Shown piece after piece: positions 38,389-64,000 of a stretch of DNA of 64,000 nt. The notes beneath the pieces are model-generated. The model had not been told where the DNA came from. It was given only the letters and a program-made list of their open reading frames with translations, and ran no database searches. Numbering within the stretch: the stretch's first letter is position 1; the number at the start of each line of letters is the position of its first letter. Source of the DNA: Crossiella sp. SN42 (lineage in GTDB: Bacteria; Actinomycetota; Actinomycetes; Mycobacteriales; Pseudonocardiaceae); the NCBI RefSeq assembly GCF_023897065.1, contig NZ_JAMHIV010000012.1, positions 62,001-126,000 on the forward strand, given 5' to 3'. The position numbers and the translations under genes were made by a program.

Positions 38389-39624
38389 ATGTCCTTCGTC
38401 GATGAGGTTTCCTCGGCCGCCGCGCGCCTGGCGAACGTCGCGCGCACCACGCCGCTGGAGGTCAACCAGCGGCTGTCCGAGCGGACCGGCGCGCGGGTGT
38501 GGTTCAAGCGGGAGGACTTGCAGGTCGGCCGGTCCTACAAGCTGCGCGGGGCGTACAACCTGTTGGCCCAGACCGAGTTCGCCGGGGCCGGGGCGGTGTG
38601 CGCCTCGGCGGGCAACCACGGGCAGGGCGTGGCCTACGCGTGCCGGCGACTCGGCATCGACGGGCAGGTGCACGTGCCGCGGACCACGCCGCGGCAGAAA
38701 CGGGACCGCATCGCCGCGCTCGGGCAGGGCAGGGTGCGGCTGGTCGTGGACGGGGACACCTACGACGACGCGGCCGCGCTGGCCCAGGAGCACGCGGCGG
38801 CCACCGGCGCGGTGCTGGTGCCCGCTTTCGACGACCGGCGGACCATCGCGGGGCAAGGCACCGTGGGCATGGAGATCGTGCGGCAGCTGGGTGGCGCGCC
38901 GGATGTCGTGGTGGTGCCGGTCGGTGGCGGCGGGCTGCTCGCGGGGGTGGGGGCCTGGCTGCGGGCGCACTGCCCGGAGACCAGGGTGGTCGGGGTCGAG
39001 CCCTCGGGTGCGGCCAGCATGACCGCGGCGCTGGCCAGTGGCGGGCCGGTGACGCTGCCGGAGGTGGACTCCTTCGTCGACGGCGCGGCGGTGCGCCGGG
39101 TGGGCGAGGTGAGCTTCCCGATGGTCCGGGACAGCGGCGCGGAGCTGGTGACGGTGGCCGAGGGCGCGGTGTGCACCGAGATGCTGGACCTCTACCAGGT
39201 GGACGGCATCATCGCCGAGCCCGCCGGGGCGCTGGCCTCCGCCGCGTTGTGCAGCGAGCTGGCGATCGGCCCCGACGAGACGGTGGTGTGCCTGCTCTCC
39301 GGTGGCAACAACGATGTCAGCCGCTACGCCGAGGTGGTGGAGCGCTCGCTGGTGCACCGCGGCCTCAAGCACTACTTCCTGGTGGAGTTCCCGCAGGAAC
39401 CCGGTGCGCTGCGCCGTTTCCTGGACGGCGTGCTGGGGCCCGACGACGACATCGTGCTGTTCGAGTACCAGAAGCGGGACAACCGGGAGACCGGGGCCGC
39501 GCTGGTCGGCATCGAGATCAGCCGCGCCGAGGACTACGACCGGCTGTGGGGCCGGATGAAGGAGTCCCCGCTGCGGATCCAGCACGTCGCGCCGGGCAGC
39601 ACGGCCTACCGGTTCCTGGTCTAG
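38389..39624 (+). CDS. ilvA: Threonine ammonia-lyase with ACT-like C-terminus
   Basis: The 411-residue PLP enzyme has the cofactor lysine in SYKLRGAYN (K51), the substrate loop SAGNHGQGVAYA, the phosphate-binding VPVGGGGLLAGV and a C-terminal regulatory ACT-like domain (about residues 325-411, YFLVEFPQEPGALRRFLDGV). It deaminates threonine to 2-oxobutyrate, the first step to isoleucine. It is a housekeeping gene at the left border of the biosynthetic cluster; its stop overlaps that of the convergent condensation-domain gene by 4 bases. Confidence 0.93.
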   Translation: MSFVDEVSSAAARLANVARTTPLEVNQRLSERTGARVWFKREDLQVGRSYKLRGAYNLLAQTEFAGAGAVCASAGNHGQGVAYACRRLGIDGQVHVPRTTPRQKRDRIAALGQGRVRLVVDGDTYDDAAALAQEHAAATGAVLVPAFDDRRTIAGQGTVGMEIVRQLGGAPDVVVVPVGGGGLLAGVGAWLRAHCPETRVVGVEPSGAASMTAALASGGPVTLPEVDSFVDGAAVRRVGEVSFPMVRDSGAELVTVAEGAVCTEMLDLYQVDGIIAEPAGALASAALCSELAIGPDETVVCLLSGGNNDVSRYAEVVERSLVHRGLKHYFLVEFPQEPGALRRFLDGVLGPDDDIVLFEYQKRDNRETGAALVGIEISRAEDYDRLWGRMKESPLRIQHVAPGSTAYRFLV

Positions 39625-41450
39625 CCGGACACTCCGATCGCGTTGAGCGGTAGCGGCAAAAGGAACTGGGCGGTGGAGACCTCAAGCCCGGCCGCGCGCA
39701 GCTGCTCGGCCAGGGCGGGCGCGTCGGCCAGGTTGCCGCCGTTGCCCGCGAAGCAGTTCGCCAGGTCGAAGGTGCGGTCCGGGTACCTCGCTTCCAGGAC
39801 CTTGGTCAGGATGGCCTCCTCCGGGGTCAGCTCGCGGCCGGCGGGGCTGCGGCGGCCATCGCCCTCCTTGGTCACCGGCAGCTCGCGCCAGCCGGGGGTG
39901 TGTTCCCCGGCCAGGCGCAGCCGGTAGCGGCGCGGGGCCGCGACCAGCGGGTTGGCCAGGAGCTCGGCCATCAGGTGGCCGTGCAGGTCGGCCGGGTCCA
40001 GCTCGGGGTCGGTGGTCAGCACCTCCGCGACCAGCTGCTCCCCCGCCACGTGCGCCTCGGCGGCCAGCACGCCGGGCACGGCCAGCAGGGCCTCGGCGGT
40101 GGCCTCGGTGTTGACCCAGTCCCGGCCCACCCTGGTCCAGCCCGGCTGGGCCTGCGGCGCGGGCTCGGGCGCGCGCGGCGGGGTCAGGCCCGCGGCGGCC
40201 CGGACGTCCTCGGCCAGCGCGTGCAGCAGCCGGCTGGACTCGGCCAGGGTGAGCAGGTGGTCCGCCGCGCGCAGCGAGATCTCCACGACCTGCTTGCCTG
40301 GGTGGATGTTGAGGTAGAGCTGTTCGGCCGGCTCGGGCACCGTCTGCTCGGTCAGCTCGTCCGCCGCGGGCACCTCGGCCTCGTCGTCCTCGTGGTACGG
40401 GTGGTAGTTGACCTCCAGCGGCGCGCGCGCCGAGACGCCCCGGTCGAAGGTCGCGCGGGCTTCCGCGGCCAGCAGCGCGATCGAGTCGTAGTTGCCGTGC
40501 TTGTAGGCGCGCAGGCTGGCCGAGTAGGCGGGCCGGAACAGCGCGGGCAGCTCCTGCGCCGGGTCGACCTCCAGCACCGCCTGGCCGAGCAGGGCGTAGC
40601 AGCCGACGCTGTGCTCGGTCGCCTGGTCGAACCGGTTGGCCACCACGGTGTCCATGGCCACCCGGTGCTCGCCGGTGCGGGCCGCGACCAGCCGGGCCAG
40701 TGCCGCGGTCAGCACGGTCGCCGGGCTCACCCGGTGCTGCTCGGCGAGCGTGCGCAGCGCGGTGGCCAGCGAGGCCGAGCGCAGGGTGACCAGGTGGCTG
40801 TGGCCCGCCGGGATCCCGCCGCAGAACGGGGCGAGGGTGTTGGCCGGGATCGAGGCGATCAGCTCCAGCCAGTGCTCATGCACCCGCTGTGCGCTCTTCT
40901 GATTGCCGGTGGTCTCGCGTTCGGCCTGGTCCAGCGGGTGCCAGCGCGGTTCGGCCAGTTCGGCGGGGCGGCCTGCCGCGGCGGCGGCCAGCAGCTCGGC
41001 CAGCTCGGTGGCGGCCAGCTGCGCGCCCCAGCCGTCCACCGCGATGTGGTGCAGGGCCAGCACCACGCCACTCGGGTGCTCCGCCGGGCCGAACAGCACG
41101 GCCTTGCACGGCCAGGAGGTGTCCAGGTCGAACTCATCGCCGGTCAGCTCGGCCGCGATGGCCGTCCTGTCACCGTCCACAGTGGACTCCAGCACGGGCG
41201 GCAGGTCCGGCGCGCAGACCCGCTGCACCGGCTCGGCGCTGGGGAACAGGCTGCGCAGCACCTCGTGCCTGGTGACCAGTTCGCGCAATGCCGCCAGCAC
41301 CGCCGCCCGGTCCAGCCCCTCGGGCACCGGAACGTGTTGGTACAGCGAAAGGGACAACGACAGGAACCGCTCACTCGGATCGAGCTGCTGCTCAAGCCAG
41401 TGGTACTGCTGGGCCCAGCTCAGCGGCCCTGACCGAAATTCGGCACTCAA
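39621..41450 (-). CDS. Standalone NRPS condensation protein with degenerate carrier end
   Basis: The 609-residue protein has a condensation domain (about residues 8-420) with the intact catalytic motif HHIAVDG (H134-G140) and C1-like LSWAQQYHWLEQQL. A segment like the small C-terminal subdomain of adenylation enzymes follows (VPGVLAAEAHVAGEQLVAEV, about 450-540). The last 70 residues resemble a carrier domain but read FAGNGGNLADAPAL where LGGxS is expected, so it cannot be phosphopantetheinylated. It should condense substrates held on free-standing carriers. Divergent from the PIG-L operon. Confidence 0.85.
   Translation of the reverse strand: MSAEFRSGPLSWAQQYHWLEQQLDPSERFLSLSLSLYQHVPVPEGLDRAAVLAALRELVTRHEVLRSLFPSAEPVQRVCAPDLPPVLESTVDGDRTAIAAELTGDEFDLDTSWPCKAVLFGPAEHPSGVVLALHHIAVDGWGAQLAATELAELLAAAAAGRPAELAEPRWHPLDQAERETTGNQKSAQRVHEHWLELIASIPANTLAPFCGGIPAGHSHLVTLRSASLATALRTLAEQHRVSPATVLTAALARLVAARTGEHRVAMDTVVANRFDQATEHSVGCYALLGQAVLEVDPAQELPALFRPAYSASLRAYKHGNYDSIALLAAEARATFDRGVSARAPLEVNYHPYHEDDEAEVPAADELTEQTVPEPAEQLYLNIHPGKQVVEISLRAADHLLTLAESSRLLHALAEDVRAAAGLTPPRAPEPAPQAQPGWTRVGRDWVNTEATAEALLAVPGVLAAEAHVAGEQLVAEVLTTDPELDPADLHGHLMAELLANPLVAAPRRYRLRLAGEHTPGWRELPVTKEGDGRRSPAGRELTPEEAILTKVLEARYPDRTFDLANCFAGNGGNLADAPALAEQLRAAGLEVSTAQFLLPLPLNAIGVSG
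41175..41187. repeat. Iterated 13-bp palindrome GTCCACAGTGGAC inside a coding region
   Basis: Third exact copy, here within the condensation-protein gene (encoding part of ESTVDG). Its presence inside a reading frame argues that the DNA sequence itself is iterated. Confidence 0.55.
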
Positions 41451-42122: not shown

Positions 42123-42872
42123 GTGCTACCAAGACATCGTTTGCTGCTTGCGTTCTCACCACATCTGGATGACGCCGTTCTCTCTGTCGGCGCGGCAATT
42201 GCCGCGCGGATCGAGCAGGGCTGGCAGGTCGTGGTCTGCACGCTGTTCGCCGGTGACCCGGACCTTCCGGTGCCACCGGGGGCGGCGGCCTTCCACCGGC
42301 ACTGCGGCCTCGGCCAGGACGCCGTCGCCCAGCGCAGGCTGGAGGACCGCGCCGCACTGGCCGAGCTCGGCGCGGTGCCCCGGCACCTCGGTTTCCCGGA
42401 CGCGGTCTACCGGTGGGTCGACGGCCGCCCGCTGCACGACCGGCCGGGCGCGGTGCTCGATCCCGGCCTGCCGGCCGAGCAGGCACTGCGGGCCGAGCTG
42501 GGTGCGGCCATCGCCGGGCTGCTCGAGGAGCTGGCTCCGGCGGAGGTCTGGACCTGTGCGGGCATCGGCGGGCACGTCGACCACCGGCACACCACCGCGT
42601 TGGTACGCCGGGAATGCGACCGCGCGGACCTGCCGCTGACGCTGTGGGCCGACCTGCCCTACGCGCTCACCGAGGCAGACCCGCACCCGGCCGCGAAGTC
42701 CGCGCCGGAACCCGCGCACCTGGCCCGCAAGCTCGCCGCCGCCGCGCACTACCGGTCCCAGCTGCCCGTGCTGTTCCCGCAGGGCACGGACTGGCGGACC
42801 GCACTGGGCACTGCCGAGGCCTGGTGGCCCGCCGCCGTGCCGACGGCACGCGCGGGCGCATCCGGCACCTGA
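42123..42872 (+). CDS. PIG-L family N-deacetylase
   Basis: The 249-residue enzyme has the LmbE/PIG-L zinc motif in the form FSPHLDDAVLSVG (H14, D16, D17) and the second histidine pair in GGHVDHRHT. Relatives remove N-acetyl from GlcNAc-containing intermediates, as in mycothiol, teicoplanin and 2-deoxystreptamine aminoglycoside synthesis. GTG 42123 after a GGGGGG-type site. As first gene of the main operon, with two glycosyltransferases behind it, it probably deacetylates a GlcNAc-bearing intermediate. Confidence 0.9.
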   Translation: MLPRHRLLLAFSPHLDDAVLSVGAAIAARIEQGWQVVVCTLFAGDPDLPVPPGAAAFHRHCGLGQDAVAQRRLEDRAALAELGAVPRHLGFPDAVYRWVDGRPLHDRPGAVLDPGLPAEQALRAELGAAIAGLLEELAPAEVWTCAGIGGHVDHRHTTALVRRECDRADLPLTLWADLPYALTEADPHPAAKSAPEPAHLARKLAAAAHYRSQLPVLFPQGTDWRTALGTAEAWWPAAVPTARAGASGT

Positions 42873-42898: not shown

Positions 42899-44026
42899 AT
42901 GACCAGCACCGACCAGCAGCTGCCCGCACCGGGCTCGACCGCCATGCTCGAACGCTGCACGCTGCCGCCGTTCACCCCCGGCAGCCAGACCTTCGACCTG
43001 CCCGGCGTGATCCGCCTGGCGCAGAACGAGAGCATCCACGGCCCCTCCCCCGCCGCGGTGGCCGCGATCGCCGCCGAGGCGGGCCGGGCGCACCGCTACC
43101 CCGACGCCACCGCGGCCACGCTGGCCGGCCGGGTGGCCGAGACCTACGGGCTGCGGCCCGAGCAGGTGGTGGTGGGCAACGGGGTCGACGAGCTGCTGCT
43201 GTTCTGCGCGGTCACCTTCCTCACCGGCGACGCGATCGGCATGGTCACCGGCAACACCTACCCCGGGCACTGGTCCGCGGTGGACTCCGTGGGCGCGCGG
43301 CGGCTGACGGTTCCGTTGCGCGGCAACCGGATCGACGTGCCCGCGGTGGCCGCCGCGCTGCGCGGCAGACCGATCACCGCGTTCCTGTGCAACCCGCACA
43401 ACCCGACCGGCACCGTGCTCACCGCCGAGGAGGTGGCGATCCTGGTGGAGGCGGCCGAACGCGGCGGCTCGCTGCTGGTGCTGGACGAGGCCTACATGGA
43501 CTTCGCCGAACCGGACCAGGCCCGCAGCGCCGCCGAGCACGTGCGCAAGGGCGCGCCGGTGATCGTGCTGCGCACCTTCTCCAAGCTGCACGGACTGGCC
43601 GGGCTGCGCTGCGGCTACGCGCTGGCCTCGCCGGGACTGGCCGACCGGCTGCGCCGGGTCAAGCACGTCACCGTCTACAACGTCAACCGCTACGCCCTGG
43701 CCGCGGCCGAGGCCAGCCTGGGCGACACCGCCTTCGCCGACACCGTGCGCGCCCGCACCAGGGCCGCGATGGCGCACTTCCTGACCGCCATCGAGGACCT
43801 GCCGTGGATCCGCGCGCAGGCCACCGTGACCAACTTCCTGCACTGCGAGCTGGACTGGGACGCGCTGCTGGTCAGCCAGGAGCTGCAACAGCGCAGCGTG
43901 CTGGTGCGGCCGTGTGCGGACATGGGTTTCCCGCGCCACATCAGGGTTTCCGTCGGCACCGAGGAGGAGCTGGACCAGCTCGTGGCGGCGCTGACCGAGA
44001 TCGCGACCGAACTGGGCCGGCCGTGA
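42899..44026 (+). CDS. PLP aminotransferase, histidinol-phosphate aminotransferase-like
   Basis: The 375-residue fold-type I enzyme shows LAQNESIHGPSPAAVAAI near the N-terminus, the CNPHNPTGTVL motif, LVLDEAYMDF, and the cofactor lysine in RTFSKLHGLAGLRCGYA (K229). It resembles HisC but lies in a biosynthetic cluster, so it more likely aminates a cluster-specific ketone or aldehyde. It is 26 bases after the PIG-L gene and its TGA overlaps the next GTG (GTGA). Confidence 0.9.
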   Translation: MTSTDQQLPAPGSTAMLERCTLPPFTPGSQTFDLPGVIRLAQNESIHGPSPAAVAAIAAEAGRAHRYPDATAATLAGRVAETYGLRPEQVVVGNGVDELLLFCAVTFLTGDAIGMVTGNTYPGHWSAVDSVGARRLTVPLRGNRIDVPAVAAALRGRPITAFLCNPHNPTGTVLTAEEVAILVEAAERGGSLLVLDEAYMDFAEPDQARSAAEHVRKGAPVIVLRTFSKLHGLAGLRCGYALASPGLADRLRRVKHVTVYNVNRYALAAAEASLGDTAFADTVRARTRAAMAHFLTAIEDLPWIRAQATVTNFLHCELDWDALLVSQELQQRSVLVRPCADMGFPRHIRVSVGTEEELDQLVAALTEIATELGRP

Positions 44027-45045
44027 GCGCCCGCCCCGCCTGCTCGGTGATCGTGCCGGTCTACGCCCGCCGCCACGACCTGGCCAGGCTGCTCGGCAAG
44101 CTGGGCGAGCAGACCGGCGCGCCGGAGTTCGAGGTCGTGGTGGTGGAGAACGGCCGCAGGCTCAACTACCGGTGGCTGCGGCAGCGGGAGTGGCCGTTCC
44201 CGCTGCGCTACGAGTACGTCGACGACGGCGCGCAGGCCAAGGCGCGCAACGTGGGCGCCGCGCTGGCCGCCGCGCCCCGGCTGCTGTTCCTGGACTCCGA
44301 CATCGACCCCGGCCCGAACACCGTTGCCGCGCTGGGCGACGGCGAGCGGCCGGGCGTGGTGATGGCCGACGTGGTCTTCCCGGCCCGCACCAAGGTCAGC
44401 CTGGCCACCCACCTCTACGACGTGCCCGCCTACTTCCGCACCACCTACCGGGCCAGGGCGCGCACCGGGCTGTCCTTCCGGGACTTCGTCTCCTGCTCCT
44501 TCGCCATGTCCCGCGAGGAGTTCCTGGCGCTGGGCGGCTTCGACGAGGGCTTCACCCACTACGGCTACGAGGACGTGGAGTTCGCCTGGCGCGCGGAGAA
44601 GGCGGGCATCCCGTTCCACCTGGGCGGGGCCAAGGTGGCCCACCACAAGCAGCTCGGGCCCACCGCGGTGCACGCCCGCGCGCAGCAGCTGGGCCGCTCG
44701 GCCGTGCACTTCGTGCGGCGGCACCCCGACCTGGAGGACACCCTGCCGCTGGGCGTGCGCGACACCCTGGACGGGGTGCTGGCCTTCCCACCGGTCTTCG
44801 ACATCGACCGGCTGCTGCGCGAGGCGGCCTGGATCGAACGCCAACTGACCATGCTGCGCCGCGGCCCCAGCCTCGGCCGGGCGCGCGGGCTGATCGCCCA
44901 CGGCCGGGAGGTCTACCACGAGATCACCCGGTTCGGCCGCTACCAGGGCATCAGCACCGAGCTGGCCCGGCTGGACACGCGCACCACCACACAGGAAAGG
45001 CGTGGCCATGGAACTCAACTCCTACCTCTACCGGCGGCTCGCTGA
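44023..45045 (+). CDS. GT2 family glycosyltransferase
   Basis: The 340-residue enzyme is a GT-A fold glycosyltransferase: CSVIVPVYARRHDLARLL, DDGAQAKARNVGAAL, the DxD-type LFLDSDIDPGP (D91, D93), and the ED-type motif GGFDEGFTHYGYEDVEFAWR, with a C-terminal galactosyltransferase-like region. It is cytosolic. It transfers a sugar, plausibly GlcNAc for the PIG-L deacetylase to act on. Translationally coupled at both ends: GTGA overlap upstream and a 38-base overlap with the ThDP gene. Confidence 0.88.
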   Translation: MSARPACSVIVPVYARRHDLARLLGKLGEQTGAPEFEVVVVENGRRLNYRWLRQREWPFPLRYEYVDDGAQAKARNVGAALAAAPRLLFLDSDIDPGPNTVAALGDGERPGVVMADVVFPARTKVSLATHLYDVPAYFRTTYRARARTGLSFRDFVSCSFAMSREEFLALGGFDEGFTHYGYEDVEFAWRAEKAGIPFHLGGAKVAHHKQLGPTAVHARAQQLGRSAVHFVRRHPDLEDTLPLGVRDTLDGVLAFPPVFDIDRLLREAAWIERQLTMLRRGPSLGRARGLIAHGREVYHEITRFGRYQGISTELARLDTRTTTQERRGHGTQLLPLPAAR

Positions 45046-46696: not shown

Positions 46697-47442
46697 GCCC
46701 GGTCACCATCCTCACCGGCGGCTCCACCGGCATCGGCGCGGCCGTGCTCACCCGGCTGCTCACCGCCGGGCGGCGGGTGCTGGTGCTGGGCCGCTCCGCG
46801 CCACAGGCCAAGCAGGACGCCGACTTCCTGCCCTGCGATCTGTCCACAGAGGACGGTGTCGCGGCGGCGCGGGCGGCGGTGCTGGCCTACCTCGGCGAGC
46901 GGGACACGCACGCCGAGGTGCTGATCAACAACGCCGGTGGCGGCCTGCCCTGCCCGGCCGCCGAGCTGAGTGCCGAGACGCTGCGGGCCGACCTCACGCT
47001 CAACCTGGTCGCACCGATGTTGTTGTGCGCCACCGTGTTGCCCGGCATGCGGGCGGCCGGGCGGGGTGTGGTGGTCAACGTGGCCTCCACCGCGGGGCGG
47101 CGGGGCGTGGCCTACCTGCACGGCTACGGCTCGGCCAAGGCCGGGCTGCTCAACTTCACCCAGAGCCTGGCCGCCGAGGTGGTCGCCGACGGCATCCGGG
47201 TCAACGCGGTGTGCCCCGGCGCGGCGCACACCGAGCTGGCCGAGGCCGGTCGCGCCCAGCTCTCCCGGCTGCACGGCTTGGAGCTGGCCGACTACCAGCA
47301 GCGGATGGCCAAGGCCACCGGCCTGTCCCGGCTGTTGAGCGCGGACGAGGTGGCCGAGGTCGTGTGCTGGCTGGCCGAGGGGCACGACCGCCCGGTGACC
47401 GGTCAGGCCTTCAACGTGTGCGGAACTTTGGAGATGGGATAA
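46693..47442 (+). CDS. Short-chain dehydrogenase/reductase
   Basis: The 249-residue SDR has the cofactor motif TGGSTGIG, NNAGGG, catalytic Ser in NVASTAGRRG and YGSAKAG (YxxxK). Classical SDR length. It overlaps the ThDP gene stop by 4 bases (ATGA), so the two are coupled. A likely role is reducing the carbonyl of the ThDP product; NAD or NADP preference is not clear. Confidence 0.92.
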   Translation: MSPVTILTGGSTGIGAAVLTRLLTAGRRVLVLGRSAPQAKQDADFLPCDLSTEDGVAAARAAVLAYLGERDTHAEVLINNAGGGLPCPAAELSAETLRADLTLNLVAPMLLCATVLPGMRAAGRGVVVNVASTAGRRGVAYLHGYGSAKAGLLNFTQSLAAEVVADGIRVNAVCPGAAHTELAEAGRAQLSRLHGLELADYQQRMAKATGLSRLLSADEVAEVVCWLAEGHDRPVTGQAFNVCGTLEMG

Positions 47443-47447
47443 GCCTT

Positions 47448-47825
47448 ATGTACCAGGTGGTTTCGATCGACGAGCCGATGTGGCCCTCGCTGCGGGAGAT
47501 GTTCGACGAGCTGGGCGAGCCGCCCCAGGTGCTCACCAGGGACAGCCCGCACCCGCTGGTGGTGCACGAGGTGATGGGGCAGCTGACCTTCGTGCAGGAG
47601 GGCAGCGGGTTCATCTCACTGGACGGCGACGAGCGCGCGGTCAAGGCAGGCGACCTGTTGATCCTCAGCTCCCGGTGCGAGCACGCCTTCCTCTCCGCGG
47701 TGGACGGCGAACTCGTGCTGCGGCACTGGCACTGGCCCGCCGCGCTGCTGGAGACCGACCGGAAGATCCTCACCTGGGACTACCGGTTCAGCCTGCCGGG
47801 GGCCGCGGTGTCCGCCGGTGACTGA
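47448..47825 (+). CDS. Cupin-domain protein
   Basis: The 125-residue protein is one cupin barrel: HPLVVHEVMGQLTFVQEGSG, LKAGDLL-type strand (VKAGDLLILSSRCEHAFL), and a C-terminal LVLRHWHWPAALL. Metal ligands are partly present (H in VVHEV, H in CEHAF, HWHW). It might be an isomerase, epimerase or dioxygenase for an operon intermediate. ATG 47448 lies 5 bases after the SDR stop; the stop overlaps the GT4 GTG by 8 bases. Confidence 0.85.
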   Translation: MYQVVSIDEPMWPSLREMFDELGEPPQVLTRDSPHPLVVHEVMGQLTFVQEGSGFISLDGDERAVKAGDLLILSSRCEHAFLSAVDGELVLRHWHWPAALLETDRKILTWDYRFSLPGAAVSAGD

Positions 47826-55832: not shown

Positions 55833-57743
55833 TCAGTCCACCGGCTCCAGCCGGGCGGCCAGGCTGCCCAGGGACTCGGTGCCGAGCAGCTCGTCGGCCA
55901 GCAGCCCGGTGTAGCCGCGCCGGGCCAGCTCGGCCAGCACCAGCGGCGCGGCCAGCATCGGCGCGCCCAGCTCGGCCAGGCTGCGGCCCAGGTCCGGGTT
56001 GATCTCCGGCAGCACCGCGGTCAGCGCCCCGGCCAGCGCCAGCTCCGCCGGATCCGCCGGTGGCTGAGGGGGCTGGTCCTGCCCGTCGCCCTCGGCCAGC
56101 ACCGGGCCGCCCGCTTCGGCGCGCAGGGTGAACCAGTGCGGGGCGAGCAGGCCGGGCAGCTCGCTGAGCTGGTCCAGCACGAACCGGCGCAGCGTGGCCG
56201 GGGTGTGCCCGGCCTCGGCGACCACCTCGGCACGCACCTTGTCGTCCACAATGGACAGTTCGACCGACTCGACCCCCGGGCAGGCGGCCAGCACCTCGGT
56301 GGTCAGGCCCAGGTCCACCCAGCCCGCCGGCAGGGCGACCCAGCCTTCCTTGGGCACCCCGGTCCGCTCGGCGGGCACCGCGAGGTCCTCCCCCGCGGCG
56401 GCCGCGCGCAGCAGTTCGCGCATGCGCCGCAACAGGTTCCGCGCGTCGTCCAGGGTGAGCAGGTGGTCGCCGGTGTTGAGGTCCACCCGCAGCATGCCGT
56501 CATCGGGCTCGATGTCCAGGAACACCGAGCCGCAGGCGCCGGGGGTGGTGTGACCGCTGAGCTCGTCCTCGCCGGTGGCCACCTCGGTGTCCGGGAAGTA
56601 GGACAGGTAGTTGAAGTCCAGCAGCGAGAACGGCTGCACGCCGGTGCGCGCCGCGTGCCGCTGCACGGCCATGTGCAGCGCGCCGGGGTCGTAGCGGCTG
56701 AACCGGTAGCCGCGCAGGGTCTCCTCGGAGACCTGGCGGACCAGTTCGTCGAAGGTCAGCCCGGCCTCGGCGCGCACCGGCACCATCACCGGGGCCGAGT
56801 ACGGGCCGATGCTGGTGCGGGTGCGCGCGGTGGTCCGGTTGGAGACGATCACGTCCAGGCAGAACCGGTCCGCCCCGGTGCGTTCGGCGATCAGGAAGGC
56901 CCAGGCGGCCAGCACCACCACCGGCAGGCTCACCCCGTGCCGGGTGGCCACCACCTGGCAGTCGGCGAGCAGGCCGGCCGAGCGCAGCCGCGCCGCGTGC
57001 CTGGCCTCGCCGCCCTGCTCGGCGCAGAAGGCGGGCAGCAGGTGCTGCGGGTGCGCGCGCACCACCTCCAGCCAGTGCTCGTGCGAGCGCTGCGCCTCGG
57101 CCAGCGCGCGCGGCGTGGCCTCCGCGGCGACCTGGTCCAGCGGGTGGTGCCGGGCAGGCGGCAACTCCTTGCCGCGCAACAGGTCCACCAGTTCCTCCAG
57201 CAGCACCGCCATGGCCCAGCCGTCGGCGGCGAGGTGGCTCATGAACAGCGCCAGCACCACCGGCGACCTGTCCCGCAGCAGCACCATGGCCCGCCACGGC
57301 CACTCGGTGGTGACCTCGAACCCGGTGCCGATGAACGCCGAGAGCGCCTGGTGCACCGCGGTCTCCGCCGGCGTGCCGGTGAAGGCGGGGACCTCCTCGC
57401 CGGGCACCGTGCAGCGCACCAGCTGCACCACCCGGTGCAGGGCGGCCTCGTCGAGTCCGTCCGCGGCGAGTTCGGTCAGCTCGATCGGGTGCTCGTCCGG
57501 ATCGCCGACGAACTGCTCCGGCCGGTCCAGGGAGACGGTGGTGCGCAACGCCTCGTGCCTGCGCACCAGCGTGCGCAGCGCGGCGCGGACCTCCGCCGTG
57601 GACACCCCGGCCGGCAGGCGGCAGGAGTCCAGCAGCGGCAGCGAGAAGGAGTGGCGCTCGTGCGGCAGGTGCCGTTCCAGCCAGTGCCACTGCTGTCCGT
57701 GGCTCAACGGCCCGGACCTGCCTGCGGGGGTGCTCTCGTTCAC
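55833..57743 (-). CDS. Second standalone condensation protein with degenerate carrier end
   Basis: The 636-residue protein parallels the one at 39621-41450: LSHGQQWHWLERHLP start, condensation motif SHLAADG (S169-G175; first His replaced by Ser, catalytic His170 and Asp174 kept), an A-domain-C-like segment (CPGVESVELSIVDDKVRAEV), and a carrier-like end where the serine motif reads LAELGAPMLAAPL, so no phosphopantetheine site. It probably forms one amide or ester bond using free carriers. It is divergent from the carrier/AMP-ligase operon. Confidence 0.83.
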   Translation of the reverse strand: MNESTPAGRSGPLSHGQQWHWLERHLPHERHSFSLPLLDSCRLPAGVSTAEVRAALRTLVRRHEALRTTVSLDRPEQFVGDPDEHPIELTELAADGLDEAALHRVVQLVRCTVPGEEVPAFTGTPAETAVHQALSAFIGTGFEVTTEWPWRAMVLLRDRSPVVLALFMSHLAADGWAMAVLLEELVDLLRGKELPPARHHPLDQVAAEATPRALAEAQRSHEHWLEVVRAHPQHLLPAFCAEQGGEARHAARLRSAGLLADCQVVATRHGVSLPVVVLAAWAFLIAERTGADRFCLDVIVSNRTTARTRTSIGPYSAPVMVPVRAEAGLTFDELVRQVSEETLRGYRFSRYDPGALHMAVQRHAARTGVQPFSLLDFNYLSYFPDTEVATGEDELSGHTTPGACGSVFLDIEPDDGMLRVDLNTGDHLLTLDDARNLLRRMRELLRAAAAGEDLAVPAERTGVPKEGWVALPAGWVDLGLTTEVLAACPGVESVELSIVDDKVRAEVVAEAGHTPATLRRFVLDQLSELPGLLAPHWFTLRAEAGGPVLAEGDGQDQPPQPPADPAELALAGALTAVLPEINPDLGRSLAELGAPMLAAPLVLAELARRGYTGLLADELLGTESLGSLAARLEPVD

Positions 57744-58090: not shown

Positions 58091-58372
58091 TTGTCGACCG
58101 TCGACACGTTGGACAGCTATCGCCAGGAACTTCTCGACACCGTCGCGGAGATCCTGGGCGACAAAGTCCAGCCGGATGACCACTTTCTCGATGTGCGTGG
58201 GGATTCACTCACCGCGGCCATCATCAACGACCGGCTGATCGCCACTCGTGGTTGCGGCGTGGAGCTGTCGCTCTTTTTTGAATCGGAAACTCTCGGTGAA
58301 CTCGCCGACCACTGGGCGTCATTGGTCACCGAGGCTAAAGCAGCGGAAAGCGAAGCTGTCAATCATGGCTGA
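58091..58372 (+). CDS. Free-standing carrier protein
   Basis: The 93-residue protein is a carrier with phosphopantetheine motif VRGDSLTAA (S39) and VELSLFFESETLGELADHW as helix III, PCP-like. It starts at TTG 58091 after a GGAGGGG site. It heads an operon with an AMP-ligase, two hydrolases, an acyl-CoA dehydrogenase, another carrier and a second adenylating enzyme. Its likely loading enzyme is the ligase that overlaps its 3' end. Confidence 0.88.
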   Translation: MSTVDTLDSYRQELLDTVAEILGDKVQPDDHFLDVRGDSLTAAIINDRLIATRGCGVELSLFFESETLGELADHWASLVTEAKAAESEAVNHG

Positions 58373-59837
58373 GCAACCGGCAGGCTTGCCAAAACTTCTT
58401 CTTGACATCGCGGCCGCCTTCCCGGACCGGACCCTGCTGGTGCAGCCGGGCTGGCCGGACGTCTCGGCGCGGGCGCTGCTGGCCGCGGTGCGGCGGGCCG
58501 CGCTGCGGCTGCGCGAGCACGGCATCGGCCGCGACGACCGGGTGACCATCGAGACCAAGGAGCTGGGCTGGGCGGAGTTCCTGCACGCCTACCTGGCCGT
58601 GGTCTGGCTGGGCGCGGTGCCGGTGCTGGCCCCGGAACCGGAGTTCGCCCCGGCCGCCGAGCTGGGCGCCCGGCACGTGCTCGCGCCGCAGGCCCGCGCC
58701 GGCGTGCTGGGCGTGGCCGAACTACTGGCAGAGGCGACCGGCCCCGCGGTGGAGCTGGCGCCGGTGCTCGCGGCCAACGGCGAGCTGGACGTGGTGTTCA
58801 CCTCCGGCACCACCGGGGCCTGGAAGCCGGTGGCCTCCACCCACCAGCAGTGGCTGGAGACGCTGCCGATGAGCACCTCCCGCGAGGTGCGCCAGACCAA
58901 GGTGGTCGCGCACGGCGGGGTGCCCGCCGCCGCCTCCGCCGGGGTGCACGGGGTGGCCCTGCACCACCTGGCCCGCGGGGTCACCAGCGTGTGGGCGGCC
59001 AGCCCGCCCGAGCTGATCGAGGCCTGTGCGCGCACCGGCGCGGTGGAGCTGCACATGACCCCGCACTCGCTGCGCGCGCTGCTGCTGCACACCGAGCTGA
59101 TCGGCCCGGAGTGGGCGGCCCAGGTGCGGGTGATCAAGACCGTCGGCGGGGTGGTGCCCAAGCAGGTCGGCTGCCTGGCCATGGAGACCTTCCCCAAGGC
59201 CAGGGTGGTGTGCCTGTACGGGCTCACCGAGGCCGGTTCGGCGCTGGGGCTCAAGGTGTTCGACCCGGAGCGCCCGGACTCCATCGGCCGTCCCCTGCCC
59301 GGCACCGAGATCCGCGTGGTGGACAACGGGAAGTCGCTGCCCGCTGGTGAGGTCGGCGAGATCGCGGTGCGCCGCCAGGGTGTGCCGCCGCTGCGCTACC
59401 TGCGCGAGGGCGAGGGCCTGGACGACATCCACCCGGACGGCTGGGTGTTCACCGGCGACCTGGGCTACCTGGCCCCGGACGGGGAGATCCACCTGGTGGG
59501 CCGGTTGAAGGAGCTGCTGTTCCTGGAGACCGGGCGCACCGCGCCGCACGTGATCGAGGACGAGCTGGCCCCGCTGCTGCCCCGCGAGGCCGACTTCGCC
59601 GTGGTCGGGGTGCCCAGCGCCGGTTCCTGGGACGAGATCGTGGTCTTCGTCGCCGGGGCGGAGGACGACGATCGCACACTGTCCATTGTGGACAAGCTGC
59701 GGGCGGTGGACGGGAAGTTCGCGCCCGCGCACGTGGCGGTGCTGCCCGAGATCCCGCGCACGGCCACCGGAAAGGCGAAGCGGGGCAAGCTGACCGCGCT
59801 GTTCCAGCAGAGCAGGCAGGCGGGGCAGCCGGTATGA
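58365..59837 (+). CDS. AMP-forming ligase (ANL superfamily)
   Basis: The 490-residue enzyme has A3 FTSGTTGAWKPV, A5 CLYGLTEAGSALG, A7 FTGDLGYLA and the C-terminal lysine region RTATGKAKRGKL. Its overall style is acyl-CoA/ACP ligase rather than NRPS A domain. It should activate a carboxylic acid and load it on the carrier whose gene it overlaps by 8 bases. ATG 58365. The substrate is not predictable by eye. Confidence 0.9.
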   Translation: MAEQPAGLPKLLLDIAAAFPDRTLLVQPGWPDVSARALLAAVRRAALRLREHGIGRDDRVTIETKELGWAEFLHAYLAVVWLGAVPVLAPEPEFAPAAELGARHVLAPQARAGVLGVAELLAEATGPAVELAPVLAANGELDVVFTSGTTGAWKPVASTHQQWLETLPMSTSREVRQTKVVAHGGVPAAASAGVHGVALHHLARGVTSVWAASPPELIEACARTGAVELHMTPHSLRALLLHTELIGPEWAAQVRVIKTVGGVVPKQVGCLAMETFPKARVVCLYGLTEAGSALGLKVFDPERPDSIGRPLPGTEIRVVDNGKSLPAGEVGEIAVRRQGVPPLRYLREGEGLDDIHPDGWVFTGDLGYLAPDGEIHLVGRLKELLFLETGRTAPHVIEDELAPLLPREADFAVVGVPSAGSWDEIVVFVAGAEDDDRTLSIVDKLRAVDGKFAPAHVAVLPEIPRTATGKAKRGKLTALFQQSRQAGQPV

Positions 59838-60664
59838 CCGTGGACCTGGCGCACGAGCGGGACGTGCAGCGGGTGACCTTCCTCGGCCCGGCGCGGGACC
59901 GGGTGTTCACCGTCCTGCACCTGCCACGCGGCAGCAGGCCGCGCGGCGGGGTGGTGCTGTGCCCGCCGCTGCTCACCGACGCGCTGGCCATCGCCCGCAC
60001 CGAGCTGGCGCTGGCCCGCGAGCTGGCCGCGCGCGGCATCGTGACCGCCCGTTTCCACTACCGCGGCACCGGGCACAGCGACGGGGCCGACGGTGAGCTG
60101 GACCTGGCCACGATGATCGCCGACACCGAACGGGTGGCCGCGGCGGTGTCCGTGCACACCGGCTCCGCGCCCTTCGCCCTCGCCGGCAGCCGCCTCGGCT
60201 GCTACCCGGCGGCCGCGGTGGCCGCGCGCACCGGCGCGGCGGTGCTGGGCCTGGCGCCCTTCGCCGAACCGGACCACTACTTCAAGCAGGCCTTCCGCAC
60301 CCGGTTCATGCGGGAGCTGGTGCTCAAGGACCGGGATCGCCGCAGCAGCAAGGAACTCTTCGCCGCGCTGGCCGAGGGCGAGACGGTGGACGTGCTCGGC
60401 TACCCGGTCACCGCCCGCTGCCACGCCAGCCTGCGCGAGCGTCGGCTCGGGCAAGAACTCGCCGGTGTGCGCGCGCTGCTGGTCACCGTCGGCGGCGCGG
60501 CCGGGCAGAACGCCCCGGTGCACGAACTGGCCGCCGAGGGTGTCGAGATCGAGGACCTGTCCGCGCCGGTGGACTGGTGGCTGGTCGGCGAGCAGTCCGA
60601 GCCCAGTCCCGCGCTGGTGGCGCGCTGCGCCGACTGGCTGAGCGAGAGGTGCGCCGATGGCTGA
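59834..60664 (+). CDS. Alpha/beta hydrolase (first of a pair)
   Basis: The 276-residue protein has strand-turn GVVLCPPLLTDALAIARTEL, GxxHSDG-type FHYRGTGHSDGADGEL, and the nucleophile elbow AGSRLGCYPAA (Ser in GSRLG). The pair with the next gene resembles the hydrolase 1/hydrolase 2 pairs found beside AMP-ligases and carriers in exosortase-A clusters, where the role is unknown. It may transfer or release a carrier-bound acyl group. ATG overlaps the ligase stop. Confidence 0.82.
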   Translation: MTVDLAHERDVQRVTFLGPARDRVFTVLHLPRGSRPRGGVVLCPPLLTDALAIARTELALARELAARGIVTARFHYRGTGHSDGADGELDLATMIADTERVAAAVSVHTGSAPFALAGSRLGCYPAAAVAARTGAAVLGLAPFAEPDHYFKQAFRTRFMRELVLKDRDRRSSKELFAALAEGETVDVLGYPVTARCHASLRERRLGQELAGVRALLVTVGGAAGQNAPVHELAAEGVEIEDLSAPVDWWLVGEQSEPSPALVARCADWLSERCADG

Positions 60665-61385
60665 GGCGAGCACCGACCACGAGCGCCCGCTGTTCCTGGA
60701 CGCGGGCCAGGACCGGCTTTTCGCCGTGCTCACCGAACCGGTGGCCGAGCCTGACGGCACCGGGGTCATCTTCGTGCAGGGCGCGGGAATCGCCGCCTTC
60801 GGCAACGCCAGGCTGAGCACCGCGCTGGCCCGCGAGCTGGCCGCCACCGGGCACCACGCGCTGCGGATCGACCAGCAGGGCGCGGGCGAGAGCACCGTCT
60901 CGGCCGCCTTCGACTTCGACTCCCCGCAGGCCCTGGCCGCCGAGACCGCCGCGGCCTGTCTGCGCGAGCGGGGCGTGTCCCGGATCGTGCTGGTGGCCGA
61001 GTGCTTCGGCGCGCGCGGCGCGCTGGCCGCGGTCAACCGAGGGCTCCAGGTCGACGGGCTGGTGCTGCTGTTCCCGCCGCTGACCGCCGCCACGGAGGCC
61101 GAGACCGACCGCGAGGCAAGGGAAACCGCCGCGTTCCTGGCCGAGCTGGCCCCTGCGGTCGAGGCCGGCGTGCCGATGTTCGTGGTCTACGGCGAGCAGG
61201 ACCTGGACTGGCCCCGCTTCGACACCGCCATGACCGGCCGCTTCGGGCCCGGCTACCGCAGCGAGCTGCCCGCGCTGTCGGTGCGGGTGGAGCCGGGCAA
61301 GCTGCACGGCATCGCCAGCGCCGCCGCCCGCGCCGCGGTGCGCGCGCAGGTGCTGGCCGCCATCACCGAGTTCCGGAAGGGGTGA
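60657..61385 (+). CDS. Alpha/beta hydrolase with cysteine at the nucleophile elbow
   Basis: The 242-residue protein has FVQGAGIAAFGNARLSTALA, IDQQGAGESTVSAAFDFDSP, and the elbow VAECFGARGALAA, where Cys stands in the serine position. The acid region is MFVVYGEQDLDWPRF and the His region VEPGKLHGIAS. A Cys nucleophile favours acyl transfer from thioesters over plain hydrolysis, as in dienelactone-hydrolase-like enzymes. It overlaps the preceding hydrolase gene by 8 bases; both probably act together. Confidence 0.82.
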   Translation: MAEASTDHERPLFLDAGQDRLFAVLTEPVAEPDGTGVIFVQGAGIAAFGNARLSTALARELAATGHHALRIDQQGAGESTVSAAFDFDSPQALAAETAAACLRERGVSRIVLVAECFGARGALAAVNRGLQVDGLVLLFPPLTAATEAETDREARETAAFLAELAPAVEAGVPMFVVYGEQDLDWPRFDTAMTGRFGPGYRSELPALSVRVEPGKLHGIASAAARAAVRAQVLAAITEFRKG

Positions 61386-61390
61386 GCGGC

Positions 61391-62533
61391 ATGGACTTCG
61401 CGCCCACCGCGGACCAGCGGGAGTACTGCGCGGTGATCAGCGACCTCGCCACCGCCCTGCCGCCGCCGCGCGCCGGGGAAGACGGCGTGGTCCGGTTCGA
61501 CCAGGAGGCCTGGCGGCGCTGTGCCGAGGCCGGCCTGCTCGGTCTGACCGTGCCTGCCGAGTACGGCGGTGGCGGCGCGGACGCGCTCACCGCCGCGCTG
61601 GCCATGGAGGCCCTGGGCCAGGGTTGCCGGGACAGCGGGCTGATGTTCTCGCTGAACGCCCAGATGTGGGCCGCCCAGCACCCGATCGCCCGCTTCGGCT
61701 CCGCTGAGCAGAAGCAGCGCTACCTGCCCGCGCTGTGCGGGGGCGAGCTGATCGCCGCGCACGGCATGACCGAACCCGGCTCCGGCTCCGACGCCTTCGC
61801 CCTGCGCACCAGCGCGGTCCGCGACGGCGACAAGTGGCGGCTGACCGGCTCGAAGCTGTTCGTCACCAACGCGCCGGTGGCCGGGCTGTTCGTGGTCTTC
61901 GCCAGCACCGACCGCAACCGCGGCTTCGCCGGGCTCACCGCGTTCCTGGTGCCCCGGGACACCCCTGGCCTCAGTGTCGGCCCCGACGAGCGCAAGCTCG
62001 GGCTGCACGGTTCGCCGATGGCCCAGGTGTTCCTGGACGACTGCGTGCTGGCGGCGGACGCGCTGCTGGGCAAACCCGGTGGCGGCGCGGCGGTGTTCCT
62101 GTCCTCGATGGACTGGGAGCGCACCCTGATCCTGGCCTGCGTGGTCGGCGCGATGGCCCGGCAGCTGGCCGAGACGGTGGCCTTCGCCAAGGAGCGCGAG
62201 CAGTTCGGCCACCCCATCGGGGAGTTCCAGGCGGTCTCGCACAAGGTCGCCGCCATGCGGCTGCGGCTGGAGTCCGCGCGGCTGCTGGTGCGCAGGGCCG
62301 CCTGGGCGCTGGACCACCGGGACGACCCCCGGCTGCACGGCGCGCTGGCCAAGCTCGCGGTCAGCGAGTCCTACGTGGCCTCCAGCCTGGACGCGCTGCA
62401 GATCCGGGGCGGCTCCGGCTTCCTGGCCGAGTCCGGCCTTGGCCAGGAGCTGCTGGACGCGGTGGGCAGCCGGTTGTACTCGGGCACCTCGGAGACGCTG
62501 ATGAACCTGGTAGCCAAGAAGGTGGGACTGTGA
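61391..62533 (+). CDS. Acyl-CoA dehydrogenase-type flavoenzyme (prolyl-carrier dehydrogenase candidate)
   Basis: The 380-residue protein has the full acyl-CoA dehydrogenase pattern: VPAEYGGGGADALTAALAME, HGMTEPGSGSDAF, FAKEREQFGHPIGEFQAV, and RLYSGTSETLMNLVAKKVGL with the C-terminal signature. It overlaps the next carrier gene by 4 bases and is followed by a proline-type adenylating enzyme. This trio matches PltE/PltL/PltF and CloN3/N5/N4, where the flavoenzyme oxidises prolyl-S-carrier to pyrrolyl-2-carboxyl-S-carrier. The substrate assignment rests on context. Confidence 0.85.
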   Translation: MDFAPTADQREYCAVISDLATALPPPRAGEDGVVRFDQEAWRRCAEAGLLGLTVPAEYGGGGADALTAALAMEALGQGCRDSGLMFSLNAQMWAAQHPIARFGSAEQKQRYLPALCGGELIAAHGMTEPGSGSDAFALRTSAVRDGDKWRLTGSKLFVTNAPVAGLFVVFASTDRNRGFAGLTAFLVPRDTPGLSVGPDERKLGLHGSPMAQVFLDDCVLAADALLGKPGGGAAVFLSSMDWERTLILACVVGAMARQLAETVAFAKEREQFGHPIGEFQAVSHKVAAMRLRLESARLLVRRAAWALDHRDDPRLHGALAKLAVSESYVASSLDALQIRGGSGFLAESGLGQELLDAVGSRLYSGTSETLMNLVAKKVGL

Positions 62534-62790
62534 CCGCGCAGACGGTGATCGAGACCTCGGTCCGGGAGTTCGTGCTCAAGAGCCGCCGCTGGCCCGGCCC
62601 GGACGTGCCGCTGACCGAGAGCTATCCGTTGCTGGACAACGGGGTGCTGGACTCCATGACGCTGATGGAGCTGGTCGCGCACCTGGAGCGCCAGTTCGCC
62701 ATCGTGGTGGAGGACGAGGACATCCTGCCGGAGAACTTCGAGGACCTGGCCGCGATCGTCCGCTACGTCCGGGAGAAGGAGGGCAGCTGA
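62530..62790 (+). CDS. Free-standing carrier protein (pyrrolyl-carrier candidate)
   Basis: The 86-residue carrier has the site DNGVLDSMTLMEL (S42) and helix III VEDEDILPENFEDLAAIVRY, the acyl-carrier style of PltL/CloN5/RedO. GTG 62530 overlaps the dehydrogenase stop. It lies between the dehydrogenase and the adenylating enzyme, so it should hold the amino acyl group while it is oxidised. Confidence 0.9.
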   Translation: MTAQTVIETSVREFVLKSRRWPGPDVPLTESYPLLDNGVLDSMTLMELVAHLERQFAIVVEDEDILPENFEDLAAIVRYVREKEGS

Positions 62791-62791: not shown

Positions 62792-64000
62792 GTGGACTAC
62801 CTGCTGCACCACTACCTGGACGCCTCGGTCGCGGCCACCCCGCAGGCGGTCGCGGTGGTCGACGGCGGCGGCGAGCACAGCTACGCCACCCTGAGCGAAC
62901 GCGCCGACCGGATCAGGGGCGCGCTGCACGCCGCCGGGGTGCGGCCGGGTGACCGGGTGGGCATCCACGCGGAGAAGTCCGTGGACACCGTCGCCGCGAT
63001 CTACGCGGTGCTGCGGGCCGGCGCGACCTACGTCTGCCTCGACCCGCAGGCGCCCCCGGCCCGGCTGGCCACCGTGGTCGCCGACGGCGGGCTCACCGCG
63101 GTGCTGGCCGACGAGCCGCGGCTCGGCACCATCCCCGGGGCCAGGGTGCTCCCGCTGGCCGAGGCGGTCACCGCGGAGCCGCACACCGGGCCCGCGCCCG
63201 CCACCGAGGGCGACCTGGCCTACCTGATCTACACCTCCGGCTCCACCGGCGCGCCCAAGGGCGTGATGCTCAGCCACCGCAACGCGATGGCCTTCGTGGA
63301 CTGGGCGGTGGCGGAGTTCGCCATCACCGCGGCCGACCGGCTCTCCAGCCACGCCCCGTTCCACTTCGACCTGTCCATCCTGGACCTCTTCGCCGCGGCC
63401 AAGGCCGGGGCCGCGGTGGTGCTGGTGCCGCCCCGGCTGTCGATGTTCCCGGTGCGGCTGGCCCAGTTCATCGCCGAACAGCGCATCTCGGTCTGGTACT
63501 CGGTGCCCGCCGTGCTCAGCGCGCTGGCCACCCGCGCCGGCCTGTCCCCCGGCGCGCTGCCCGCACTGCGCCTGGTGCTCTTCGCCGGTGAGGTGTTCCC
63601 GGTGGACCGGCTGCGCGCGCTGATGGAACTGTTGCCCGGCAAGCGTTTCGCCAACCTGTACGGGCCGACCGAGACCAACGTGTGCACCTGGCACGAGCTG
63701 GACGGCCCGCCGCCGCAGGGGGCCACCGAGATCCCGATCGGCCGCGCCATCGCCAACACCCGCGCCTGGGCCGCCGGACCCGACGGGCAACCGGTGCCGC
63801 CCGGCGAGGTCGGCGAGCTGTACGTGCGCGGGGCCACCGTGATGCGCGGCTACTGGGGCGATCCGGCCCGCAGCGCGGAGAAGCTGGTGCCCAACCCGCT
63901 CACCGGCGCCGACGGCGACCTGGTCTTCCGCACCGGCGACCTGGTCCGCGCCGACGACACCGGCAGCTTCACCTTCATCGGCCGCCGCGACGGCCAGATC
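62792..64000 (+). CDS. Amino acid adenylating enzyme, L-prolyl-AMP ligase type, cut by the window end
   Basis: 403 codons are present and the frame is open at the right edge. Start GTG 62792 with an AAGGAGG site 9 bases upstream. Motifs: A3 IYTSGSTGAPKGVML, HAPFHFDLSILDLFAAAKAG, WYSVPAVLSAL, LVLFAGEVFPVDRL, NLYGPTETNVCTWHEL and FRTGDLVRAD. This set is characteristic of stand-alone proline adenylases (PltF, RedM, CloN4). It should load an amino acid, probably proline, on the carrier encoded just upstream. The last part, with the catalytic lysine, is outside the window. Confidence 0.88.
   Translation, partial: MDYLLHHYLDASVAATPQAVAVVDGGGEHSYATLSERADRIRGALHAAGVRPGDRVGIHAEKSVDTVAAIYAVLRAGATYVCLDPQAPPARLATVVADGGLTAVLADEPRLGTIPGARVLPLAEAVTAEPHTGPAPATEGDLAYLIYTSGSTGAPKGVMLSHRNAMAFVDWAVAEFAITAADRLSSHAPFHFDLSILDLFAAAKAGAAVVLVPPRLSMFPVRLAQFIAEQRISVWYSVPAVLSALATRAGLSPGALPALRLVLFAGEVFPVDRLRALMELLPGKRFANLYGPTETNVCTWHELDGPPPQGATEIPIGRAIANTRAWAAGPDGQPVPPGEVGELYVRGATVMRGYWGDPARSAEKLVPNPLTGADGDLVFRTGDLVRADDTGSFTFIGRRDGQI

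Follow-up and report, generated by a model that had tools for sequence, protein, structure and literature searches.

In contig C4 of Crossiella sp. SN42 (a high-GC genome of 9.72 Mb), we delineated a biosynthetic island of 27 genes (~28.8 kb, 39,621-68,461), most of which (39,621-64,000) falls within the window, i.e., the whole 64,000-nucleotide stretch analysed here (contig positions 62,001-126,000). The reading that we tentatively prefer, and to which we give slightly less than an even chance, is that the island is a single accessory cluster (39,621 to ~68,461) that makes a small pyrrole-acylated amino-oligosaccharide, and that its two condensation (C) proteins, C1 and C2, are remnant modules of a nonribosomal peptide synthetase (NRPS). 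The first-pass annotation of this DNA had described a hybrid of amino-sugar genes and a dissociated NRPS-like set, a description that our analysis supported, and our genome searches turned up nothing closely related to the whole set.

Genes were called with a small codon-based caller and the sequence was read 38 kb past the window, which confirmed that the cluster continues beyond it, as had been claimed, in this case to 68,461. Pfam families were assigned for all 27 island genes and NCBIfam scans covered 20 of them; statements below on families that were not recognised refer to these matches. The left edge of the island touches a threonine dehydratase gene and is sharp, as the DNA shared with congeners (87-88% identical) stops at 39,622 in all three. 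On the right, congener-shared flanking DNA restarts at ~68,453 in two of the three, among the matches listed, and in the same search the ABC ATPase gene of the island matched other ABC genes in the congeners. A congener DNA search over 42,100-62,000 (the interval 62,000-64,297 lay outside it) yielded a single ortholog-level match, to the methyltransferase gene (82%, two of three congeners), the other matches (65-71%) being to ABC exporter, aminotransferase and dehydrogenase genes; no relative of C2 was found in the three congeners at E<=1e-20. A second genome of this species, on the other hand, contained all 27 genes with no internal stops and with order and strands kept, their ends differing by 0-4 codons, and dN/dS between the two genomes was 0.03-0.42 in the 25 genes with both dN and dS above zero (C1 was entered in a 568-residue form and one short-chain dehydrogenase, SDRb, with one extra codon). 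Being intact, collinear and low in dN/dS, the genes are real and under selection; wide conservation does not follow from this, since the two genomes come from a single species. The island is accessory: it is present in two genomes of one species, and its searched parts, the methyltransferase excepted, are missing from three congeners.

The most original feature of the cluster is its pair of decayed-module C proteins:

39621..41450, minus strand: C1, condensation protein of 609 amino acids with a TTG start (Pfam Condensation 2.5e-25; motif HHIAVDG; tail at ~39,621-40,139)
55833..57743, minus strand: C2, condensation protein of 636 amino acids (Pfam Condensation 2.8e-29; motif SHLAADG; tail at ~55,833-56,345)

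The two proteins are paralogous (36% identity), both retain the second His and the Asp of the HHxxxDG motif, and each exceeds the length of a C domain by ~170 residues, which form a C-terminal tail. In Pfam, the tails gave no match at E<=1 to the adenylation (A) subdomain A_sub or to a carrier, and their weak matches were to unrelated families (DUF6349 0.22, HMA 0.2, TPR 0.037). When profiles were aligned with hhalign, however, the tail matched the A_sub-peptidyl carrier protein (PCP) part of ordinary NRPS modules over 170 columns (probability 96%, E 2.5e-9). Its score was 62.8; the best of 100 column-shuffled controls scored 19.7 and the reversed control 18.3. When the paralogs were aligned jointly, GGNL (C1), GAPM (C2) and GGRF (a third paralog) stood at the place of the carrier motif GGHS, and by eye the Lys-bearing A10 motif is gone from the tails, such that the catalytic Lys and the carrier Ser are both lost.

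Structure prediction pointed in the same direction for part of the tail. An AlphaFold2 model of full-length C1 (from two sequences) reached a mean pLDDT of 40.8, with only tail residues ~440-530 well predicted; a Foldseek search with this whole model yielded no match as good as E 0.001, although 48 of the 50 matches listed were adenylating or NRPS enzymes. Modelled separately (again from two sequences), the C1 tail had a pLDDT of 70 overall, 82-94 over residues 11-90 and 28-61 from residue 101 onwards. Its top Foldseek match was the LgrA initiation module (170 columns, E 3.8e-4), and 42 of the 50 matches listed were adenylating or NRPS enzymes, the other eight being a MamM domain. As TM-scores were low and rmsd was high over the long alignments, only the A_sub fold is structurally safe.

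The sequence profiles thus support the view that C1 and C2 derive from C-A-PCP modules by loss of the A core, the A_sub and carrier that remain being dead but kept; the dead tail probably serves docking or stability. The C proteins had been described earlier as standalone, and they are indeed separate proteins, yet both carry the decayed A_sub-PCP tail and are not bare C domains. That no modular megasynthase would be found was confirmed by the Pfam and NCBIfam matches of the island genes; no multi-domain C-A-PCP module occurs in the island, where A, PCP and C are found only as separate proteins. A literature search with loose terms for a C-A_sub-PCP remnant architecture returned nothing on point, which is not proof of novelty.

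A related arrangement was found elsewhere in the same genome, on contig C22, where a 1,201-amino-acid A-C protein carries a tail decayed in the manner of C1 and is 46% identical to it. After this gene comes a short-chain dehydrogenase gene whose product is 52% identical to SDRb of the island, and a nearby acyl carrier protein (ACP) is 41% identical to the island carrier ACPb. This repeat makes it look as though C, ACP and SDR form a single cassette that has been used more than once. Its surroundings include a mycothiol-type inositol-phosphate synthase and an exosortase-associated-type pyridoxal phosphate (PLP) decarboxylase and ligase (all below cut-off), as well as transketolase and asparagine-synthase genes. 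Within the genus, matches to the C part of the C1/C22 family were limited to this species, namely to the present genome and to genome G583, where the island and C22 loci are ~148 kb apart; the matches in the three congeners cover the A part. As a separate observation, the C22 region (L072 4595-20000; L073 1-16524) constitutes a second uncharacterised cluster with what by eye is a StrR-like regulator, and two palindromes resembling a StrR-type box were found there as compared to 0.02 expected.

We also considered a bolder proposal: that C1, C2 and the C22 paralog define a new class of free-standing condensation proteins, whose dead A_sub and Ser-less carrier act as docking sites for free carriers, and that they build a new family of exported antibiotics, the pyrrole-acylated, ribosylated amino-oligosaccharides. 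This we think rather unlikely. Relatives were sought gene by gene, in genome draws that may overlap and with counts that include the genome itself. At 1e-40, C1 was found in 1 of 397 order genomes and, at 1e-35, in 2 of 394 class genomes; the neighbourhoods of its relatives (in G1050, Embleya and Streptomyces NBC_01237) held NRPS genes and no matches to the sugar genes of the island. On an Embleya plasmid and in genome G1050, we observed shorter free-standing C proteins (477 and 514 amino acids) that are 33-39% identical to parts of C1 and lie next to A-ligases and to tiny proteins that by eye resemble MbtH (L084 15437-17392; L082 16418 into L083). These sit in otherwise ordinary NRPS clusters.

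The acyl side of the proposed product is indicated by three consecutive genes:

61382..62533, plus strand: L-prolyl-carrier-protein dehydrogenase of the acyl-CoA dehydrogenase family (NCBIfam ProlPCPDhRedW, NF045652)
62530..62790, plus strand: PCPp, free carrier of the pyrrole trio (Pfam PP-binding 2.3e-6; carrier Ser intact)
62792..64000 in the window, with its end at 64,297, plus strand: ProA, prolyl adenylation enzyme (match to 6o6e; pocket residues)

For the part of ProA within the window, the best single-domain solved relative was 6o6e (PltF), an L-proline--prolyl-carrier ligase (9.5e-84), and the only higher-ranking structures were multi-module LgrA chains with two matched stretches. Seven pocket positions could be read via motif anchors (D, L, L, Y, L, V, C), and they fit what we take to be the pyrrole-type proline code, such that the specificity is a predicted one. 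The dehydrogenase matched ProlPCPDhRedW at 2e-130 (435 bits, under the equivalog cut-off of 650), followed by the PigA model at 6e-122 (407 bits, under the cut-off of 500), with the next acyl-CoA dehydrogenase family far behind (1.6e-77). The assignment of adenylation enzyme, free carrier and dehydrogenase to the known pyrrole sub-cluster is therefore well supported by these matches. PMC6395733 reports this trio as a module in 33 clusters, small-molecule ones.

Further acyl functions, and the exporters, are encoded by the following genes:

52671..52934, minus strand: ACPb, free carrier (Pfam PP-binding 3.9e-8; GLSSI)
53972..55765, plus strand: ABC exporter, membrane and ATPase parts (Pfam)
58091..58372, plus strand: PCPc, free carrier (Pfam PP-binding 1.4e-10; GDSL by eye)
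58365..59837, plus strand: LIG1, AMP-dependent acyl ligase (Pfam AMP-binding, from the open reading frame (ORF) containing LIG1; NCBIfam; PRTATGK)
59834..60664, plus strand: alpha/beta-hydrolase of the exosortase-associated hydrolase-2 type (TIGR03101 7.9e-18, below cut-off)
60657..61385, plus strand: alpha/beta-hydrolase of the exosortase-associated hydrolase-1 type (TIGR03100 7.8e-14, below cut-off)
Downstream of the prolyl adenylation gene, beyond the window: ABC ATPase, then ABC-2 permease (gene calls and Pfam)
66,165-68,461, just past the window: LIG2, a third AMP-ligase, and a transglutaminase-like gene (gene calls and Pfam)

Adenylation motifs are intact in LIG1 and LIG2. Two adenylating enzymes had been counted at first, and two do lie in the window; the third ligase is located beyond it. 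The hydrolase-1-type protein has a Cys at its nucleophile elbow (AECFG), and the hydrolase-2-type protein has GSRLG at the likely elbow. The third-position GC of PCPc (58,091-58,372) was 0.68, far under that of the other 26 island genes (0.87-0.98).

The sugar side lies between C1 and C2 and is listed here together with SDRb:

42123..42872, plus strand: PIG-L family de-N-acetylase (Pfam PIG-L 1.1e-17; metal motifs PHLDD and HVDH)
42899..44026, plus strand: HisC-like PLP aminotransferase (Pfam Aminotran_1_2 7.4e-49; NCBIfam hisC 3.1e-74, below cut-off)
44047..45045, plus strand: GT2-type glycosyltransferase (Pfam Glyco_transf_7C and Glycos_transf_2; EpsD/MftF-like, below cut-off)
45002..46696, plus strand: thiamine diphosphate (ThDP) enzyme of acetolactate synthase type (three TPP domains)
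46693..47442, plus strand: SDRa, short-chain dehydrogenase (Pfam adh_short, from the ORF containing SDRa; NCBIfam SDR models)
47448..47825, plus strand: cupin protein (Pfam Cupin_2 5.6e-7)
47857..49086, plus strand: GT4 glycosyltransferase, MshA/EpsE-like (NCBIfam EpsE 3.1e-22 and mycothiol_MshA 4.5e-19, below cut-off; Pfam, from the containing ORF)
50185..51300, plus strand: radical SAM/SPASM protein (Pfam, from the containing ORF; CNLKCSMC)
51297..52013, plus strand: phosphoribosyltransferase-like protein (PRTase; Pfam Pribosyltran, below cut-off; phosphoribosyl pyrophosphate (PRPP) loop DDVLMSGHT)
52013..52681, plus strand: HAD-family phosphatase-like protein (Pfam HAD_2 2.1e-25)
52941..53702, minus strand: SDRb, short-chain dehydrogenase (Pfam adh_short 3e-46)

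All of the genes listed in the first-pass annotation (PIG-L deacetylase, two glycosyltransferases, ThDP enzyme, aminotransferase, radical SAM, PRTase/HAD, three free carriers, acyl-CoA dehydrogenase and exporter) were recovered, the PRTase weakly. It had not mentioned the RlmM/FtsJ-like methyltransferase, the two alpha/beta-hydrolases, the two SDRs and the cupin. The PIG-L protein is assigned to its family, within which a deacetylase and an LmbE-like role look the same by sequence. The best solved relatives of the ThDP enzyme were BbmA, AHAS I and CsmA; a sequence search at E<=0.01 gave no solved structure related to the radical SAM protein, and the PRTase had no match in the PDB better than E 0.18.

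At E<=1e-3, two of the 200 order genomes contained a PRTase match, the one outside its own genome (3.4e-4) lying in an unrelated neighbourhood; at 1e-6, the PRTase was found in 1 of 336 phylum genomes. The radical SAM protein was matched in two of the 396 phylum genomes at 1e-25, with 27% identity outside its own genome. Among plasmids, nothing matched the PRTase, and the radical SAM protein, the aminotransferase and the ThDP enzyme were matched only below 60% identity. Within the named genome collection (50 loci), the nearest relative of the radical SAM protein (36%) came from a Dependentiae metagenome-assembled genome (MAG), where its gene adjoins a putative inositol-phosphate synthase (by eye), a DegT-like fusion and glycosyltransferases. 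The putative synthase is 28% identical to its C22 counterpart over 190 residues, and this neighbourhood hints, by analogy, at an aminocyclitol or amino-sugar substrate for the radical SAM protein. We observed separately that the Dependentiae locus (L021 4432-13060) forms one run with three radical SAM genes, GT2s, the DegT-like fusion and the putative synthase; judged on its genes, it looks like an aminocyclitol-like locus in an unexpected lineage. A second relative (32%), from a Woesearchaeota MAG, is surrounded by glycosyltransferases, and a third (25%), on a Brachyspira plasmid, lies among sugar-nucleotide genes.

Such relatives raise the alternative that the island is a surface-glycan locus with acylated sugars instead of a source of a diffusible small molecule. 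The radical SAM relatives in glycan-type loci would fit it, as would the resemblance of the glycosyltransferases to EpsD/EpsE and of the ligase and hydrolase pair to exosortase-associated cassettes. However, no initiating polyprenyl-phosphate sugar transferase, flippase or polymerase was seen among the family matches of the 27 genes, and the pyrrole trio is known from the small-molecule clusters cited above; we thus regard this alternative as quite improbable.

The gene arrangement bears on a different alternative, namely that two unrelated clusters are adjacent here, one for a sugar (~42.1-52.7 kb) and a small dissociated pyrrole/NRPS one (~52.7-68.5 kb plus C1). The strands, which the first-pass annotation did not give, are minus for C1, C2, ACPb (52,671), SDRb and the methyltransferase and plus for the remaining genes. 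The operon-like overlaps between genes favour a single cluster, and the convergent and divergent blocks are compatible with two. Moreover, the halves share no obligatory step, and the methyltransferase shows that single genes moved into the island. Yet the paralogous C1 and C2 stand to the left and right of the sugar block, which ties the two halves together; the second genome of the species has both halves, and the searched parts of both (62,000-64,297 left out) are missing in the three congeners. Accordingly, we find two separate clusters clearly unlikely.

Under the single-cluster reading, the pathway could run as follows. ProA would load L-proline onto PCPp and the dehydrogenase, as assigned by family, would oxidise it to pyrrolyl-S-PCPp, with LIG1/PCPc and the third ligase perhaps contributing another acyl or aminoacyl group, or two. 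On the sugar side, the MshA-like GT4 would transfer a sugar of the N-acetylglucosamine type, the PIG-L protein would free the amine and the GT2 would add a second sugar; the PRTase-like protein might then add ribose, to be dephosphorylated by the HAD protein, and the radical SAM protein, aminotransferase, ThDP enzyme, SDR and cupin might modify one unit. C1 and C2 would join the carrier-bound acyl groups to the sugar amines, the hydrolase pair, one member having the Cys nucleophile, may acylate a hydroxyl, a further amide may come from the transglutaminase-like protein, and the exporters would remove the product. If true, the cluster would offer a small sugar-pyrrole molecule that has yet to be exploited, and its C proteins would show how, in nature, a modular synthetase breaks up into single enzymes while keeping its dead parts, which could help in the design of peptide synthetases acting in trans.

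Several observations weigh against this reading, in which the product is predicted from the genes. None of the island genes was recognised as one that forms a nucleotide sugar or an aminocyclitol, the PRTase assignment is weak (Pfam E 0.0011; 18.8 bits with a cut-off of 26.3), and the best radical SAM relatives belong to glycan-type loci of unrelated MAGs. In C2, the first His of HHxxxDG is a Ser. When the halves of the tail were aligned separately, A_sub reached 94% and PCP only 49%; among single island proteins the tail matched LIG2 only (61%, 49 columns), with <1% each for ProA, LIG1 and the three free carriers. The window contains no StrR-type box, and no link between the island and C22 was shown. 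Finally, the methyltransferase has orthologs (79-81%) in two of the three congeners that do not have the island, where they lie outside any cluster, and its sole other match in the class draw (G496, 47%) is likewise solitary and outside any cluster.

This last gene requires separate consideration:

49058..50089, minus strand: RlmM/FtsJ-like 2'-O-methyltransferase (Pfam FtsJ 9.2e-11; NCBIfam RlmM 1.5e-22, below cut-off)

The METHYLTRANSFERASE is RlmM/TlyA/FtsJ-like, with the S-adenosylmethionine motif DLGASPGG; it is a single copy in its own genome and rare in the class draw (2 of 246 genomes at 1e-15, its own included). At the congener loci, no further island gene was found within the 20 kb read (L095 9071-10090; L096 9273-10292). 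It seems to be a genus gene that changed place, and its standing as an island member is doubtful. A ribosomal target for the product, suggested by this methyltransferase, was favoured at first and then dropped from the core claim in view of the 79-81% orthologs in two of three island-less congeners. Because those orthologs lie outside any cluster, the methyltransferase argues only weakly for such a target, and the solitary and congener copies speak against a cluster-specific resistance role. The enzyme may protect the producer, and a ribosomal target is a weak possibility.

We then compared the island with known systems. The pyrrole-2-carboxyl sub-cluster (CloN3-N5, CouN3-N5, PltE/F/L, Red/Pig) has the same prolyl A enzyme, free PCP and dehydrogenase in adjacent genes, whereas here the trio is set within an amino-sugar cluster with C proteins, and no halogenase or polyketide synthase was seen among the family matches. 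An exosortase-A-associated acyl cassette (TIGR03098/03100/03101) likewise combines an adjoining AMP-ligase, carrier and two paired hydrolases, but all of the corresponding island matches are below curated cut-offs, and the family matches include no exosortase. With butirosin and ribostamycin, the island presumably has in common a PIG-L deacetylase, a GT4, a radical SAM protein and a PRTase-like protein with a phosphatase; of the O-phosphoribosyltransferase and phosphatase feature, the PRPP loop and HAD protein are present and the PRTase match is weak. In contrast to those systems, no dehydroquinate-synthase-like (DOI synthase) or DegT aminotransferase match was seen among the family matches of the 27 genes. 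The pyrrolamides (congocidine, netropsin) share free-standing C proteins, carriers and pyrrole units with the island, which lacks a Cgc18-like protein with C and an intact PCP. The first-pass annotation had drawn on this analogy, which turned out to be weak, since the island pyrrole comes via proline and not by the acetamidopyrrole route; the pyrrole of congocidine derives from 4-acetylaminopyrrole-2-carboxylate, according to PMC4047045.

A third alternative follows from the closest of these comparisons: the island might encode a diverged lincosamide- or aminocoumarin-type pathway that leads to a relative of a known antibiotic. As in the lincosamide synthetase (lincomycin/celesticetin), a stand-alone proline-type A domain, a free carrier, a PIG-L-fold protein, a glycosyltransferase and an amino sugar come together, and the alpha/beta-hydrolases beside the pyrrole trio recall clorobiocin CloN7, which we take to be of alpha/beta-hydrolase fold; by analogy, the hydrolase pair could act in a comparable role. 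Nevertheless, neither octose genes nor coumarin genes nor an MDMPI-type LmbV protein were seen among the family matches of the 27 genes, and lincosamide units are joined without a C domain, whereas the island has two C proteins that would make its amides, and its proline would be oxidised to pyrrole. For this synthetase, PMC4351081 describes a stand-alone proline-type A domain, a carrier and a PIG-L/Mca-type protein, thus mycothiol-like amino-sugar proteins, in a cluster that has amino-sugar genes and a glycosyltransferase as well; its authors also mention that the condensation domain is absent. We therefore hold this third alternative to be very improbable. In clorobiocin, as PMC11218499 states, a prolyl-derived pyrrole is coupled to a deoxysugar, the acyltransferase CloN7 being used to move the pyrrole onto a sugar hydroxyl. 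The earlier remark that the nearest analogies do not normally occur together was thus too strong, as lincosamide synthetase and clorobiocin combine several of these parts. By its gene membership, the cluster carries the pyrrole sub-cluster but falls outside the lincosamide, pyrrolamide, deoxystreptamine and modular NRPS types; the nearest working analogies for the pathway that we propose would be aminocoumarin pyrrole transfer and the lincosamide synthetase.

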